The position numbers and the translations under genes are program-made. A stretch of 64,000 nucleotides of DNA from NCBI RefSeq assembly GCF_027595985.1, contig NC_073303.1, positions 27,227,347 through 27,291,346 on the forward strand. Direction: 5' to 3'. Shown piece by piece: positions 18,560-56,800 of the stretch. The notes beneath the pieces were generated by a model. It saw nothing but the letters and a program-made list of their open reading frames with translations. It did no database searches and was not told the DNA's origin. Positions within the stretch are counted from its first letter, which is position 1, and each line of letters opens with the position of its first letter. This DNA comes from Sorex araneus (lineage: Eukaryota > Chordata > Mammalia > Eulipotyphla > Soricidae).

Positions 18560-19448
18560 ATGACGGGTGGATGGGTGGGTGGATGGATGGGCAGATAAAT
18601 AAATGAATAAAAGGATGGATGAAAAAATAGATGGGAAGATGACTGGATGGGAGGGAGGGAGGAAGGGAGGAAGGAAGGAAGGAAGGAAGGAAGGAAGGAG
18701 AAAGGAAGGAGGAAGGAAGGAAGGAAGGAAGGAAGGAAGGAAGGAAGGAAGGAAGGAAGGAAGGAAGGAAGGAAGAAAGGGAGTGAGGGAGGGAGGAAGG
18801 AAGGAAGGGAGGGAGGGAGGGAGGGAGGAAGGAAGGAAGGAAGGAAGGGAGGGAGGGAGGGAGGGAGGGGAGGGAGGGAGGGAGGGAGGGAGGAAGGGAG
18901 GGAGGGAGGGAGGGAAGGGAGGGAGGGAGGGAGGGAGGGAGGGAGGGAGGGAGGGAGGGAGGGAGGGAGGGAGGGAGGGAGGGAGGGAGGGAGGGAGGGA
19001 GGGAAGGGAGGGAGGGAGGGAGGGAGGGAGGGAGGGAGGGAGGGAGGGAGGAAGGAAGGGAGGGAGGGAGGGAGGGAGGGAGGGAGGGAGGGAGGGAGGG
19101 AGGGAGGGAGGGAGGGAGGGAGGAAGGAAGGAAGGAAGGAAGGAAGGAAGGAAGGAAGGAAGGGAGGGAGGAAGGAAGGAAGGAAGGAAGGAGGGAGGGA
19201 GGGAGGGAAGGAAGGAAGGAAAGGAGGAAGGAAGGAAGGAAGGAAGGAAGGAAGGAAGGAAGGAAGGAAGGAAGGAAGGAAGGGAGGGAGGAAGGAAGGA
19301 AGGGAGGAAGGAAGAAAGGGAGGAAGGAAGGAAGGAAGGAAGGAAGGAAGGAAGGAAGAAAGGGAGGAAGGAAGGAAGGAAGGAAGGAAGGAAGGGAGGG
19401 AGGAAGGAAGGAAGGGAGGAAGGAAGGAAGGAAGGGGGGGAGGGAGGA
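18560..19448. repeat. Polypurine tract, (GGAT)n then (GGAA)n/(GGGA)n, about 0.9 kb
   Basis: A GGAT/GGGT tetranucleotide stretch (18560-18650) passes into about 800 bp of interspersed GGAA and GGGA tetranucleotides on the + strand. All six frames appear open because of the period-4 composition; nothing is coding. Confidence 0.97.
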
Positions 19449-41871: not shown

Positions 41872-44800
41872 CTCTCTCTCTCTCCGCAGCGCCCAGCCCA
41901 CACACACCTGGTTCTCGTGGCAAGGGCCCTGGCAGTACTCGGTGAGGGTCTCCAGGGTCTGAATGACGAGGCCCACGTTGTCCTCGTTGATGTAGAGCCC
42001 CAGCAGCCCCAGGCCCCCGGTGGTGCTGCCACACATGATGTCCAGGAACTGCAGCGTCTCACACACCAGGTTGTAGTTGGTCTTGTTGTTCTGGCAGCGC
42101 AGGAAGTTCTGCAGAGCAAAGAGGGGTGGTCTGGCTGGGCGGGGTGGGAGGGCAGCCCGGGGGGGGGGGGGGGGGGGCTGCACGGGGAGGCAGGCTCGGT
42201 GGTCCAAGGCAGAGGCGCCTGCTGGTACTGGGCCAGAGTGGAGCCAAGCGCGGTGGGCGTGCCAGGGGCAGGGCTCTCCGTGAGGGCGTGGCCGGGGCGG
42301 GGCGGGGCGCGGGGGCGTGGCCGGCGCACCTGCAGGTCCCTGTTGTGGTTCTCGCACAGCAGCTGCAGGAAGCGCAGGATGGGCTGCATGATCAGCACCG
42401 AGGTGCCCATCTCGTTGCTCTGTGCGCGCTCACCCACCTCGTGGCCGGGGTGCAGGCTGGAGCCCAGCGAGAAGCGGGACGGGGAGCCAGGCATGGAGAA
42501 GGAGGCCACCCTGCCTGCAGGGAGAGGCCTGGTGAGGCGCGGCGGGCCCCTCTCCCTCTGTGCCGCCCCCCACCCCATTCCCAGCCACCCGCCCTCACCT
42601 TTGGCAGCCACGTCGGCCGGCTCCCGCTCCTCGCGCGGCTGGCTGCCCAGGTCACTCATGTTGACGGCCACCGTGGACTTGGTCTCCTGCTGTGCCCGCC
42701 TCATGCGGTCGTGCAGCACTTTGAAGAATCGCTCCGACTTCTTGTCGCTGGTCATCAGGTTGTAGAAGGATTTCTGGGGGCAAGGGGTGAAGAGATGGGG
42801 TTGGCACCGCCCCCCTCGTGGAGCCAGCTATAAGCAGCCCCAAGGGCTCCGTCGTGGGCTGCTGGGACAAGGACGGGGCTCAGAAGGGCCCCAAATACAC
42901 CCAGACCTAAGGACGGGGGACACAGTAACCCGGGCCTGTGCCGAAGGCCAGGTGGAGATAAGGGGGTTTCCGGGCTGCCTCCTGCTTCAGTCTTGGCTCG
43001 ACTCTGTCCCCACAGCTGCCAGGGGGTCCCTGCAGACTGACCCCATCTCCTATCAGCTGGAACTTCTGGCTCCTTCCCCCAGAGGGAAAGTGATGCCCCC
43101 AGGTCCCCCAGGGCCTCGTGACAGCCGGTCCCCTCTGTCCCCATCCTGCCACAACACCCACAGCAGCCACTTCCCTTCCCCCCTGCACCCACGGGCTCCC
43201 TCTCCCTCTAGCCTCCCAGCAGCTGCCCCCAAAGTCCCAGCACCAGAGAACCGTGGTTTGCCTCAGGCCCTAACGCAGTGCGGGGCGCACGGCGGGCCCC
43301 AGGCAGGCTCCCTACGGAAATGACGAGTTCCGGCTCGGAGCCGCTGGGAGGGCGCCTGCCTTGCACACAGCTGACCCTGGGACGAGCCCTGTGTGCAGAG
43401 CCAGGAGGAACCCCTGAGCACCACTGGTGTGGCCCCCGAACCCCTCCCACCCCACGAGGAGAAAGAAATGGCAAGTGTGTGAGGCCCCAGCACCAGCGGG
43501 CAGATCTGCCTGGGCACGGAAGGTGGAGGAGGAGGAGGGGAGGAGGCAGGAAGGAGGCCCCAGCAGAGCCTGAGAGGCATGAAGGGGCGTGACGGGAGGC
43601 AGGAGGCCGAGGGAGAGGCCAAGCGTGGCTGGAGCAAGGGGCCGCCCCACCCCCGGCAGCGACCCAGCACCGGCCCCCCCGCCCCCCAACCAGGCTCCCG
43701 GCTGCCCGCCCCTCCCCACACCTCTCTCCCGGCTCCCTGCCACCCCCGCCTGTGTCCCAGCTCCCCATCACCCACACCTGGATCCTGCCCACCCCCAACC
43801 TGGATGCCAGCTCCCCCCTCCACACCCTGCCCTAATCCCAGCTCCCCGCCACCCCCACCACCCCCCACCCCAACGCACACACCTGGATCTCTGTGTTGCC
43901 GCCATCCAGCAGGCGGATGGCCAGGCCGAGGCTCTCCTGGAAGACCTTCTCGTTCTTGGTGCTGGTGATGAGGTCGCACACCAGCTTGGTGGCCCCCTCT
44001 TTGTCCAGCCGGCACTGGGTGGCCGCGATCACCGACCAGTCCTGGTCCGGGCCTGGGGTGGGTAAACCCACTTGAGGGGGAGCCCATGGGGCTGCAGGGA
44101 GGGGCTGTGGCCTGGGCAGATGGGCCCAGCCCCCAAGATGCTGCTGGGACAGTACTGACCGGGCTCCTGGGGTCGGGGAGGTCACCCCGAGAGCTGGAGG
44201 GGACAGTACTGACCGGGGCCCATGGGGTCAGGGAGGTCCCCAGAGCCGGAGGGGGACAGTACTGACCGGGGCCCATGGGGTCAGGGAGGTCCCCAGAGCT
44301 GGAAGGGACAGTACTGACCGGGGCCCTTGGGGTCGGGGAGGTCCCCCGAGAGCTGGAGGGGACAGTACTGACCGGGGCCCATGGGGTCGGGAAGGTCCCC
44401 CCCCAAGAGCTGGAGGGGACAGTACGGACCGGGGCCCATGGAGTCTGGGAGGTCCCCAGAGCTGGAGGGGACAGTACTGACCGGGGCCCATGGGGTCAGG
44501 GAGGTCCCCAGAGCTGGAGGGGACAGTACTGACCGGGCCCATGGGGTCGGGGAAGTCCCCCCTGAGAGCTGGAGGGGACAGTACTGACCGGGGCCCATGG
44601 GGTTGGGGAGGTCGCCCCCCCGAGAGCTGGAGGGGACAGTACTGACCAGGGCCCATGGGGTCAGGGAGGTCCCCCTGAGAGCTGGAGGGGACAGTACTGA
44701 CCGGGGCCCATGGGATCGGGGAGGTCGCCCCGAGAGCTGGACTTGCGGTTCTGGAGGTAGTTCTGTAGCAGCATCTTGCGCAGCTGGTTGCCCTGGGGAC

Positions 44801-47800
44801 AGGAGGACCACAGACACACGGTCCTTCATCTAAGGATCTGCTCGAAAGTTCTAGAACCCCCTGGCCAGGTCCTCCCACTGTCTGTCTGTCCACTGTCCAC
44901 CAGCCTGTTGTCCATCTGACTACTTTCCCCTGCCCTCTGTCCACCCACCTGTTGTCCCTGCCCTCTGTCCACTCTACCTGCCATCCCCTGCCCTCTGCCC
45001 ACCCACCTTGAGACCACCACCCATGGCCCATCCTGTCTGCTGTCCATCCTATCACCCGCCTACTGTCCCTACTGCCCACTGTCTGACCTGTCCACCTTGT
45101 CTGCTGTCCCTCCCTCCCACTCCCGACCCAGCCCACCACCGCCATCCACCCGTCCCACTCAACATACATCCATCCTGCTGTCCACCCCGTCCCTCTGACC
45201 CATCCTCATCCACCCGCTGTACACCTCGGCCCTGCCCCCTGCCCTCACCCTGCCCTGCCCTCCCCTGTCCCTGCCCCCTGCCCCCACCCTCCCCCCTGCC
45301 CTGCCCTCCCCTGCCCTGCCCTCCCCTGTCCCTGCCCTCCCCTGCCCTGCCCTCCCCTGCCCCCACCCTCCCCCCTGCCCTGCCCTCCCCTGCCCTGCCC
45401 TCCCCTGTCCCTGCCCTCCCCTGCCCTGCCCTCCCCTGTCCCTGCCCTCCTGCCCTGCCCTCACCTGTCCCTGCCCTCCCCTGCCCTGCACTCACCCTGT
45501 CCCCGTACTTGCTCTTCTTGGTCAGCATCTGCTGCAGAGTCCGCAGCACCTTCACGCACAGCTTCTCCTCCGACTCCATGAGCTCCTGGGTGTGCTGGAT
45601 CAGCCTGGCGGGATGCGGCTCTCCGCTCACCCACTGCCGCCCCGGCCCGGTGCCCGCGGGAGCCCCGCCCGCCCGCCTGCCCGCCTGCCCGCCGTGCTCA
45701 CTTGGACAGGAAGCCCCCGCTCTCGCAGCGCACGTAGGCCTCGCTGCCCTCCAGGAAGAGCAGCTCGGGCCAGTGCAGCATGTCCACCAGCACCGACAGC
45801 TCGGCCTGCACCAGGGGCTTCAGCCGCTCCTCCAGGGCCGTGATGATGTCCTGCGCGGACAGGACCCTCACTGCCGGCTCCCGGCAACCCACCCCGCCAC
45901 CCAGGGAGGGACCTGGCCCCGCCAAGCCACCCTGCACGAAGCTGGGGCCCTGTGGAGCCCCTCGCCAGGGGAGTGAGCCCCAGGTTCTCAGGGGTCCTGG
46001 GGAAGACCCCGGTCTCCTGCCACAGGGCTCCGGGCCCACCCAGGGAAAGGCAGAGTCGGGAGCAGGGGGCCCAGCCCCCTCTGCGAGCACCACCCGCACC
46101 TGCTGGGCTCCTGCTGTCTTGGGGGCCCTCGCCTGGCGCCCACGTCCCGGGGGTGCCCAGAACCCCCCCGCCCACCTGCAGCTTCTCGATGATGTTCTTG
46201 TAGTCCCACTGGTTGGCCGTGGGGGTGACCCGGGGGAAGGTGCGCGTGGTGGCCTTGTAGTTGGCGGCGTTGCGCTGGGCGGCCGTCACGCAGCTGGCCC
46301 CGCTGCTCAGCAGCACGCTGATGTGGGCGTCCAGGTCCATGGGCAGCGAGATGGCCCTGCCCTTGGCTGCGGGGGACACGCAGGGGGCGGAGCTCAGCCG
46401 GCCAGACACGCCCATCCCAGAGCTGCCTGCTGGGGGCGCAGGACGCAGGCGCTCCCGCTCCAGCCCCCACAGGGACTGGGCCCTTTCCCCTTTCAGACTG
46501 GGCCCTGACCCCGCCTTCCCCCTCCCTCACCATCCCCCCTGAGGCCACCCACCAGCAGGAAACCTGGGGACTCGCCCCCAGCACTTGGAGGAGGAGTAGC
46601 CCCTCCCGGCCGGGCACTCACGGCTGCAGGGGAGCCGCCCACGCACGCGCTCAGGGCAGCCGGGAGCGGGCAGGCCGCGCACTCACCCACCATGGCCAGG
46701 GTCCGGATGCACGCCTCCACGGAGGCCTTGTGTTGCTGCTGCAGCCACGGACACTCGAGCAGCCGCGTGGTGGACTGTAGCAGCTGGACCACGATCGTCT
46801 GGTGTGTCTGCGAGAGGCAAACGGCCCCATGCAGCCGGCACCGCCCCTCACCCCCACCCCGGACAGCCCCAGGCCCACTGAGGCGGGGCATGGTGGAGGG
46901 ACGAGTCTGCAGGCAGCTGCCAGGGGCACGTGGGCCAGTTCGGGATGAGGCAGTCTCTCAGCGGTGCATGGCAACCCCACTGTGCATGGCAGCTTGGGAG
47001 GCCCAGGACTGGGCCTTCTAACCTGACCGCTCACCCTTCTCTTCCTTTAAAACTACTTAAGGAGGAGCCGGAGCGATAGCACAGCGGTAGGGCTTTTGCC
47101 TGGCACTCAGTCGACCCCGGTTCGATTCCCAGCATCCTATATGGTCCCTGGAGCACCGCCAAGAATATTCCTGCGTGCAAAACCAGGAGGAACCCCTGTG
47201 CATCGCCAGGTGTGGCCAAAAGAGCTAAAATAAATAAATAAATAAAATTTAAAAAATTAAAAAACATAAAGCTCCTTAAAGGAACCAAAGAGATAGTGCA
47301 GTGGGTAGGGCGCTGGCCCTGCATATGACCAATCTGGGTCCAACCCCCTGCATCCCGTATGGTCCCCCGAGCACCATCAGGAGTGATTTCTGAGCGCAGA
47401 GCCAGGGGCAACCCCTGAGCACCACCAAGAGTGGCCCAAGAAACAAAAGTCAAAAAAAATTTTTTAAAACACCCTAAAACTGCTTAAACTCAAACCTGGG
47501 TCAGCCGTGTGCAGGCCGAGTGCCCTCCCGGCTGCCCCAGGCCTTGGCCCCAGGGGTCCTACAGGTGGGCTCCCGCCCCTGCCCGTCCCCACCTGCAGGG
47601 ACGTGCTGTTCTCGGAGAACGGGGAGCTGAAGAAGGCGTTGATGGTGTCCAGGACCACGGTCAGCACGTACTTCTCCAGCGTGGTGTCCGCCACGCGCTT
47701 CTCGCGCTTGATGCAGACCTGCGGTGGGGGAGCGTGAGGCGGGGGCGGGGGCCAACGCGGGGCCCCCCACACCGGCCCCCAGGGGCTTCCCGGGCCCCGC

Positions 47801-53800: not shown

Positions 53801-56800
53801 GAAAATGTCTTTCAGCTGCTGTATATGGCTCTCTTTGAGGTAGATTCAAAAATTTTAAAGATAACAATGACAAGGAGTCAAACGGGACATACCTCTTTTT
53901 TTTTTTTTTTAAACAACCTCCCTGGTGTGGCGCCCCTTTCTTTTTATTTTTGTGTTTTACACAGTTGTTGTTTTTAAAATGGGGGGAGCATTGGCTGTCA
54001 CCTTGCCATGCGGGTTTCAATAAAGCTTTGTAAAGAAAAAAAATAATAAAAATAAATAAATAAGGGGCTGGAGTGATAGCACAGCAGGTAGGACTTTTGC
54101 CTTGCATGCGGCCGACCCGGGTTCGATTCCCAGCATCCCATATGGTCCCCTGAGCACGGCCAGGAGTAATTCCTGAGTGCAGAGCCAGGAGTCACCCCTG
54201 TGCATCGCCAGGTGTGACCCAAAAAGAAAAATAAGTAAATAATGGGGCTGGAGTGATAGCACAGCGGGTAGGGCATTTGCCTTGCACGCGGCCAACCCGG
54301 GTTCGATTCCCAGCATCCCACATGGTCTCCTGAGCACCGCCAAGGGTGATTCCTGAGTGTAAAGCCAGGAGTAACCCCTGTGCATCGCCAGGTGTGACCC
54401 AAAAAGCAAAAAAAAAAAAAAGTAAATAAGTTAATTAATTAATTAATTAAATGGGGGGAGCAGAGAAACAGTACCGTGTGCCGGGAGCTTGCCATGCATG
54501 TGGCCAACCTAGGTTCAATCCCTGGCACCCCATATGGTCCCCCAAGCACTGCCAGGGGTAACCCCTCAGTGCAGAGCCAAGCGTAAGTCCTGAGCACCAC
54601 TGGGTGCTAAAAACAAAAAGCACCACTCGGTGCCAAAAACAAAAAGATCTGATATCTCCTCATCACCTCCAAGTTGTTCCCGAAATCACAAAAGAGCCTT
54701 TACCCGCCTCACTACAGGAGGTTGGGGCGCTAATCATGCCTGCCAATGCGGCTCCCCCTTCGCTGTATGAACACAGTCGCGGGCACACCTACTGCTTCCA
54801 AGCCCTAGAACTGACCCCGGTGCCTGCGCTGTGTGGGTGTGGGAACGCCGCTGAGGGAAGCCTGCCTCGGAGACCCCCCTCTCGGACCACGCGGGTTTCC
54901 TGCCTTCACCCCGTCCTCCTAGTCTAAATAAAGGCTGCGTCTGGAGCAAGAGTACAGTGGGGAGGGCATCTGCTTGCACGTGGCCGACCCAGGTTCAATC
55001 CCTGGCACCCCTGTGGTCCCTGAGCACTGCAAAGAATGAGCCCTGAGCATTGCCGGGCGTGGCCTAAGACCAAAATAAACAATAAAAATGCTACTGAGAA
55101 GGGGTCCAAGGCTTCAGCAGATGCCTGTGGCATGGCAGTTACGAGTCCCCAACTCTGGGTGATCTCTCCCCACTCCAGGACGCTGCCCGACAGCCCCACA
55201 CCCCTGCCCGGCCGGGGACACGACATCCTTTGTTGTGACCAAATCCAGCGTGCTCACACCAGGGCCCTGACATGGAGCCCAGGTTTGGGGGGGTGGGGGG
55301 CGGTCGGAGCTCAGAGCCAGAGGTCAGAGCCACAGAGCAGGGCCTGGCAGAGGGAGGGGTGGCTGCACCCCCCCACCATCCCAAGAAGGGTCTGAGGCCT
55401 GTGTGATGCCATTCACCACCCCCGCCTCAATCATAGCCTCACCCGACTCCAAACATGGCCTCCGCCTGCTCCCCGATGCGATCCAGGTTCATGTTGGCGG
55501 CTGTGGGAGCAAGAAAGGTGGGGAGCACGGGAGGGAGGGGCAGAAGGACCCAGCCCCCTCTCTCCCACCCAGGCTGGGTGGGCCCCTTCTGCCCGCCCCT
55601 TTCCCAGAGATGTGGGACCGCCCAGAGCAGGGACAGAGCTGGGGTGGGGGCAGAATCCTGGGCCCGGGTACCCTGGTCATCGCCTGCCACCATGGGCAAG
55701 TCTCTGGGCCTCGGTTTCCCCCATTTAGGGAACAGGGGAAGGCTCTCGCCCTCTGCCCTCCCCACGGCAACTCAGGCGACCGAGAGTGTGGGGACAGAGC
55801 GGGGGTGAGCCTGGGCCTGGGGCGGAGGGGGGCGGGGGGCTCACTGGTGGAGTCGAAGGCGGGGGCGGTGCCGTCGGCCCCACTGTCCTGCATGGGAAAC
55901 ACCTCCACAAACTCCTTCTTGAAGACGGACAGCAGGTAGGAGATGCGGTAATCCAGCCGCACGTTGAGGATGAACTGTGGGGGCGGGCAGGGGGTGAGGG
56001 CCGGCCGGGCAGGAGCACCCCGGGGGGCCCAGAGCCCCTCTCCTGGGGAGCGGGAAGGGAGCCCTCGGGTCTCCGGGTGGACTTGTCTTGTTCCAGACAG
56101 ACCCTAGGGCTCCCCTGGGCCGAGGGGGGGCACCGAGGCCCTTAGGGAGCCGGAGAGGCCTGAGGGGTGCAGGGAGGCGGGAGGGACCCAGTCCCCTCAA
56201 CTGGCCCCTACTCGTGGGCACGGGACTCAGATCAGAAGCCCCCCACCCCCAGAACAAGCTGGAAGCCCCCAGGCCCAGTGCGGCTGGGACCCCTGGGCTC
56301 AGAGCTCCTCGCTCTGTGGGGTGGCAGGCCCCGGGCGGGCCCTCCGGGCAGCAGAGCGGGAAGGACCCTGCCCCTCCCAGCAAGACTTCGTGCCTCAGGG
56401 ACGGCTGGTCCCAGGAGCCCGTGTCGTTAGTGCCCAGGCCAGGCTCCACACCAGCAGCCTCGCGAGACAGCGATGCCGGGGAGCTGGGCCGTGACCCGAG
56501 GGTGCCCAGCCGGCCCCCACCGTCTCCTTCCCGTCAACCCCAGGCCGGGCCGTCACCTGCAGGATCTCCAGGATCTTCAGCTTGGTCTCCATCACCACAA
56601 TGTCTTCATTCTCCTCAAACTTGCTTCTGTCCAGGGACTCGGCGGCCCCGGTGCCCGCAGGCAGGCTGGGGCCGCCAAAGACGGACTGCTTGCGGTTCAG
56701 CACCATGGTGGACATCATCTGGCCCACGCCCTGAATGGACCGCCGCACGTTCTTGCCTGCAGGAGGCAGGGCCATAATGACACAGGGCAGACGCGCCTCA

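Follow-up and report, generated by a model that had tools for sequence, protein, structure and literature searches.

We found that an intron of the ITPR3 gene in Sorex araneus is largely occupied by a minisatellite whose unit joins the end of the preceding coding exon to that exon's own 5' splice site. The array adjoins the coding exon and includes its authentic donor, in a window of 64,000 nt (NC_073303.1, positions 27,227,347 to 27,291,346) that was analysed as a whole. The reading that we favor, with a probability of about 0.7, is that a tandem duplication spanning the exon-intron junction was kept by descent, and that splicing would go mainly through the first donor, a part of it probably leaking into transcripts prone to nonsense-mediated decay. 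The anatomy, the reading frame and the stop codon in this reading are direct observations and are described first.

The gene lies on the minus strand. The exon pair flanking the array matched IP3 receptor type 3 (6dqj, which we take to be the human protein) over residues 1683-1767 without gaps (E = 8.5e-46), in agreement with the original prediction, which had named the gene as ITPR3; the ITPR3 exons as a whole gave 11 matching stretches with the receptor, reaching residue 2649. The first exon of the pair codes for 30 residues plus one base and ends in CCG, and the 649-nt intron that follows starts with GTCAGTACTGTCCC, the G of the authentic donor GTCAGT being at 44701.

Splitting the array at the donor gave a seed unit running from exon position -40 to intron position +14, followed by ten intronic copies of 55, 58, 55, 52, 52, 57, 54, 52, 53 and 54 nt in order, with length differences lying mostly within a G run. 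TRF called the array at 44146-44741 with a period of 52, 11.0 copies, 88% matches and a score of 879, and called it also at a period of 216 with a score of 962. The ten copies account for 542 of the 649 intron nucleotides, and their donors lie at 44646, 44588, 44533, 44481, 44429, 44372, 44318, 44266, 44213 and 44159. GTCAGT is kept in nine of them, the exception being GTCCGT at 44429; the donor context is CGGT in the units and TGGT in one copy. Aligned with the exon end plus donor, the intronic copies showed 84-91% identity (n = 10), and the mean pairwise identity of the units was 88% (best pair, 98%). A 25-mer over the donor and the unit junction found nine matches at up to 3 mismatches in the 64-kb window, all in the array and its first junction, with 0 expected from 100 shuffles. 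The predicted composition of the unit, its relatedness to the exon end and the count of ten copies beyond the authentic junction, nine with GTCAGT, were all reproduced.

Table 1 Features of the ITPR3 exon pair and the array in its intron
Feature	Position	Strand	Remark
ITPR3 coding exon, 91 nt	44702..44792	-	aligned from residue 1683 of 6dqj
Seed unit, 54 nt	44688..44741	-	last 40 nt of exon and first 14 nt of intron, with authentic donor GTCAGT from 44701
Ten intronic tandem copies, 52-58 bp	44146..44687	-	
In-frame TGA in first intronic copy	44661..44663	-	common to all ten contiguous exon extensions
Intron remainder outside array, to authentic 3' splice site, 93 nt	44053..44145	-	
Next ITPR3 coding exon, 170 nt	43883..44052	-	frame and match to IP3 receptor type 3

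We then considered the products of alternative donor use. Extension of the exon to the next donor adds 55 nt and brings in the TGA 38 nt past the junction, both as predicted, and the exon, if extended without a break as far as any of the ten further donors, runs into this same stop. Among the 11 donors used as exon end, the first alone gives an uninterrupted ITPR3 frame. An extended product would stop near residue 1725 of 2671 in 6dqj numbering; frame and stop position support the prediction that splicing at the next donor would yield a truncated receptor. The in-frame TGA in the first copy and the unit lengths of 52-58 also argue that the array is not a translated coding repeat.

The units carry the other splice signal as well. 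An acceptor-like AG (TCCAG before CTCT) is present in nine of the ten, whereas unit 9 reads CCGG and is without it. With a crude weight matrix, these acceptor-like sites scored 1.6-3.5; the authentic 3' site (44052) scored -0.2, and the 3' site of the exon itself (44792) scored 5.8. Read as mini-exons, the units are 32-38 nt long and none of the ten is a multiple of three. Joining them to the exon pair gave a stop inside the pair in seven cases, one of which is unit 9, and an open but out-of-frame product throughout in the other three. A mini-exon join to unit 1 is improbable, since the intron to be removed would be 20 nt long.

By its energy of pairing with the U1 5' end (-6.6 kcal/mol), the authentic donor is weak. 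It ranked 23 among 24 placed ITPR3 donors, and 8.7% of 3305 GT sites scanned on the same strand paired with U1 as well as or better than it did. The same energy was obtained for eight of the ten copy donors, with -6.4 and -4.6 kcal/mol for the others, and the 11-nt donor context is identical to that of the authentic site in eight of the ten downstream copies. U1 may meet many equivalent choices among the copies, as had been proposed. Local RNA folding gave a mean unpaired value of 0.30 for the first donor and 0.17-0.40 for the other ten, and RNA accessibility was rejected as a cause of the first donor winning, the eleven donors being similarly paired. Since the copies match it in U1 energy and folding, nothing that we computed explains a preference for the first donor.

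These donor data bear on the alternative that the minisatellite is neutral and its copies silent, with exon definition confining splicing to the first donor. The single frame-keeping donor does adjoin the exon, and the array gave no significant signal of selection (see below); against this stand the weakness of the authentic donor, the eight copies that equal it in U1 energy, and the leakage documented for the human ABCA7 precedent (PMC5954066). We regard silent copies as unlikely.

Selection on the donors was assessed from the columns of the unit alignment. In the ten intronic copies, one deviating cell was found in 15 donor-side columns versus 15 in 35 other ungapped columns; this difference was not significant by permutation (p = 0.07, and 0.57 when any window was allowed). 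Selection on the donor hexamer is therefore unsupported, and common descent would suffice to account for the conservation of the donors. The same p values weigh against an expression rheostat, in which copy number would set the choice of frame-breaking sites, array length would tune ITPR3 dose through decay, and the donors would be under selection. The uniform outcome of misuse speaks for it, with ten of ten downstream extensions reaching one TGA and no mini-exon of a length divisible by three, as does the ABCA7 VNTR, where expression is lower and exon 19 is skipped more often with longer alleles (PMC5954066). In that study, however, unit retention is the same whatever the VNTR length, and unit-retention transcripts are stated not to be the cause of the lower expression (PMC5954066). 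We consider such a rheostat quite unlikely.

Bolder still, and in our view a long shot, is the idea that the array regulates ITPR3 as a poison-exon rheostat whose setting depends on copy number, and that it provides a natural test of the positional ranking of identical 5' splice sites. Near-complete mini-exons (acceptor-like AG, 32-38 nt, donor) occur in nine of the ten units, and one intron holds 11 donors, of which ten differ little in U1 energy, and nine additional acceptor-like sites whose scores on the crude matrix exceed that of the authentic one. An assembly artefact is very improbable, for although tandem arrays are generally error-prone, units that differ to this extent (mean identity 88%, best pair 98%) do not resemble the spurious repetition of one read segment; the copy number in the assembly could still be off.

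We infer the duplication history, the splice choice and the decay in the favored reading of a junction-spanning duplication as follows. A tandem duplication would have placed a copy of the stretch between exon -40 and intron +14 in the intron, and short common words near the borders (TCC, AGC) could have seeded it. Later unequal exchange or slippage would have produced the ten intronic copies, and the intron would have grown from about 107 nt, the figure left by subtracting the ten copies (542 nt), to 649 nt. Unit identity peaked at lag 4 (0.902 versus 0.866-0.891 at lags 1-3, 5 and 6), which together with the 216-bp TRF period suggests block duplication of units. The last unit continues as GTCAGTACTGTCCCAGCAGCATCTTGG, which we read as pre-existing intron. 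The intron would predate the array, because 14 nt of the unit are intronic and the intron goes on with other sequence past the last copy. Intronic sequence both in the units (14 nt) and beyond the array (93 nt) would not fit intron gain by tandem duplication, and AGGT, which the duplicated segment contains in the original Rogers form of such gain, was absent from all 11 unit rows when read by eye. The donor and acceptor-like motifs would be present in the copies by descent. Splicing would most likely occur mostly at the first donor, while probably a minority of transcripts are spliced at a downstream donor, or include a unit as mini-exon, and would carry a premature stop or frameshift leading to nonsense-mediated decay.

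We compared 24 hand-placed ITPR3 donors, which are part of the gene's donors, each with its next 600 nt and with 100 shuffles; those past about residue 1767 were placed by frame and GT. The array donor had a junction score of 57 (z = 14.8) and was alone among the 24 in having its junction copied near-perfectly within that distance. The next exon's donor at 43882 reached z = 6.5 against shuffles; it is unexceptional because, among the 1212 decoy GT sites that lie beyond the array, 110 reach its score. The previous exon's donor at 45495 had z = 1.9, with its score reached by 88 of the 1212, and the remaining 21 donors had z of at most 1.6. A general tendency of ITPR3 to duplicate its donors was rejected, as decoys often reach the scores of both neighbouring donors. 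A score of 57 was reached by 30 of 1246 decoys, comprising 19 of the 34 that lie in the array and 11 of the 1212 beyond it. Among the latter, 17 scored at least 50, and these lie at 54.3-54.4 kb (3), 45.37-45.46 kb (2) and an AC microsatellite near 41.8 kb (12), loci that are other TRF-listed tandem repeats.

Several other repeats were observed in the window. A G-rich array at 45237-45503 (periods 5, 15 and 31) reaches donor 45495 and contains a near junction copy, GGGACAGGTGAGGGCAGGG, at the z of 1.9 given above, which is not above its own composition. Degenerate G-rich repeats occupy 43680-43882 in the next intron, with a copy of exon end and donor, GATCCAGGTGTG, about 95 nt downstream. A 180-bp element with 2.1 tandem copies at 54048-54420 resembles a tRNA-like SINE, and a GGGA repeat of about 800 bp (198.5 copies) lies at 18649-19447.

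Spaced at 52-58-nt steps, the donors offer a natural system in which the influence of position on the choice between equal 5' splice sites can be measured. The array also shows how a duplication across the junction can make an intron about six times as long and expose a conserved gene to mis-splicing. Among the open-access papers listed on ITPR3 minisatellites or on minisatellites and VNTRs with splice sites, none was seen to report the ITPR3 array. The arrangement had been called unusual; its anatomy stands, and the ABCA7 intron 18 VNTR and the IFI6 minisatellite are precedents for it. The kind of array is already known, and what is special here is that the unit takes in coding exon and carries both splice signals, and that the donors are nearly identical. 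The IFI6 (6-16, G1P3) minisatellite has a short unit of 12 bp and gives in-frame isoforms, unlike ITPR3, in which the extensions meet a stop. Two downstream repeat units of IFI6 act as donors, in the passage of the source that cites Turri 1995 (PMC4526556), and the downstream ITPR3 units likewise carry donors, as candidate sites.

The human ABCA7 VNTR is also a minisatellite that abuts a coding exon and includes its donor, the first two bases of its 25-bp unit being the exon 18 donor (PMC5954066). One unit is retained through a donor in the VNTR, giving an out-of-frame transcript with a premature termination codon (PTC), and cycloheximide raises PTC transcripts (PMC5954066). By analogy, such arrays may matter for gene dose. 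The smallest observed ABCA7 length is 12 units, while the ITPR3 unit, of about 54 bp, includes 40 nt of coding exon as well as an acceptor-like AG. For ABCA7, polymorphism and RNA use are known; the ITPR3 array is known here from one DNA sequence. Length of the miR-137 VNTR has been linked to splicing, with donors placed outside the repeat in the relevant passages (PMC6692358). Donor choice is shifted towards intron-proximal sites by SRSF1 and towards intron-distal sites by hnRNP A1 (PMC5585400). Reviewed cases of intron gain by tandem duplication include potato RdRp, duplicated across an intron-exon boundary, and a multiple duplication of 24 bp in fission yeast (PMC4974935). Like these cases, the ITPR3 array is a tandem duplication of a segment with splice signals. 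Unlike them, the ITPR3 intron appears to have existed already, and the array would merely lengthen it.
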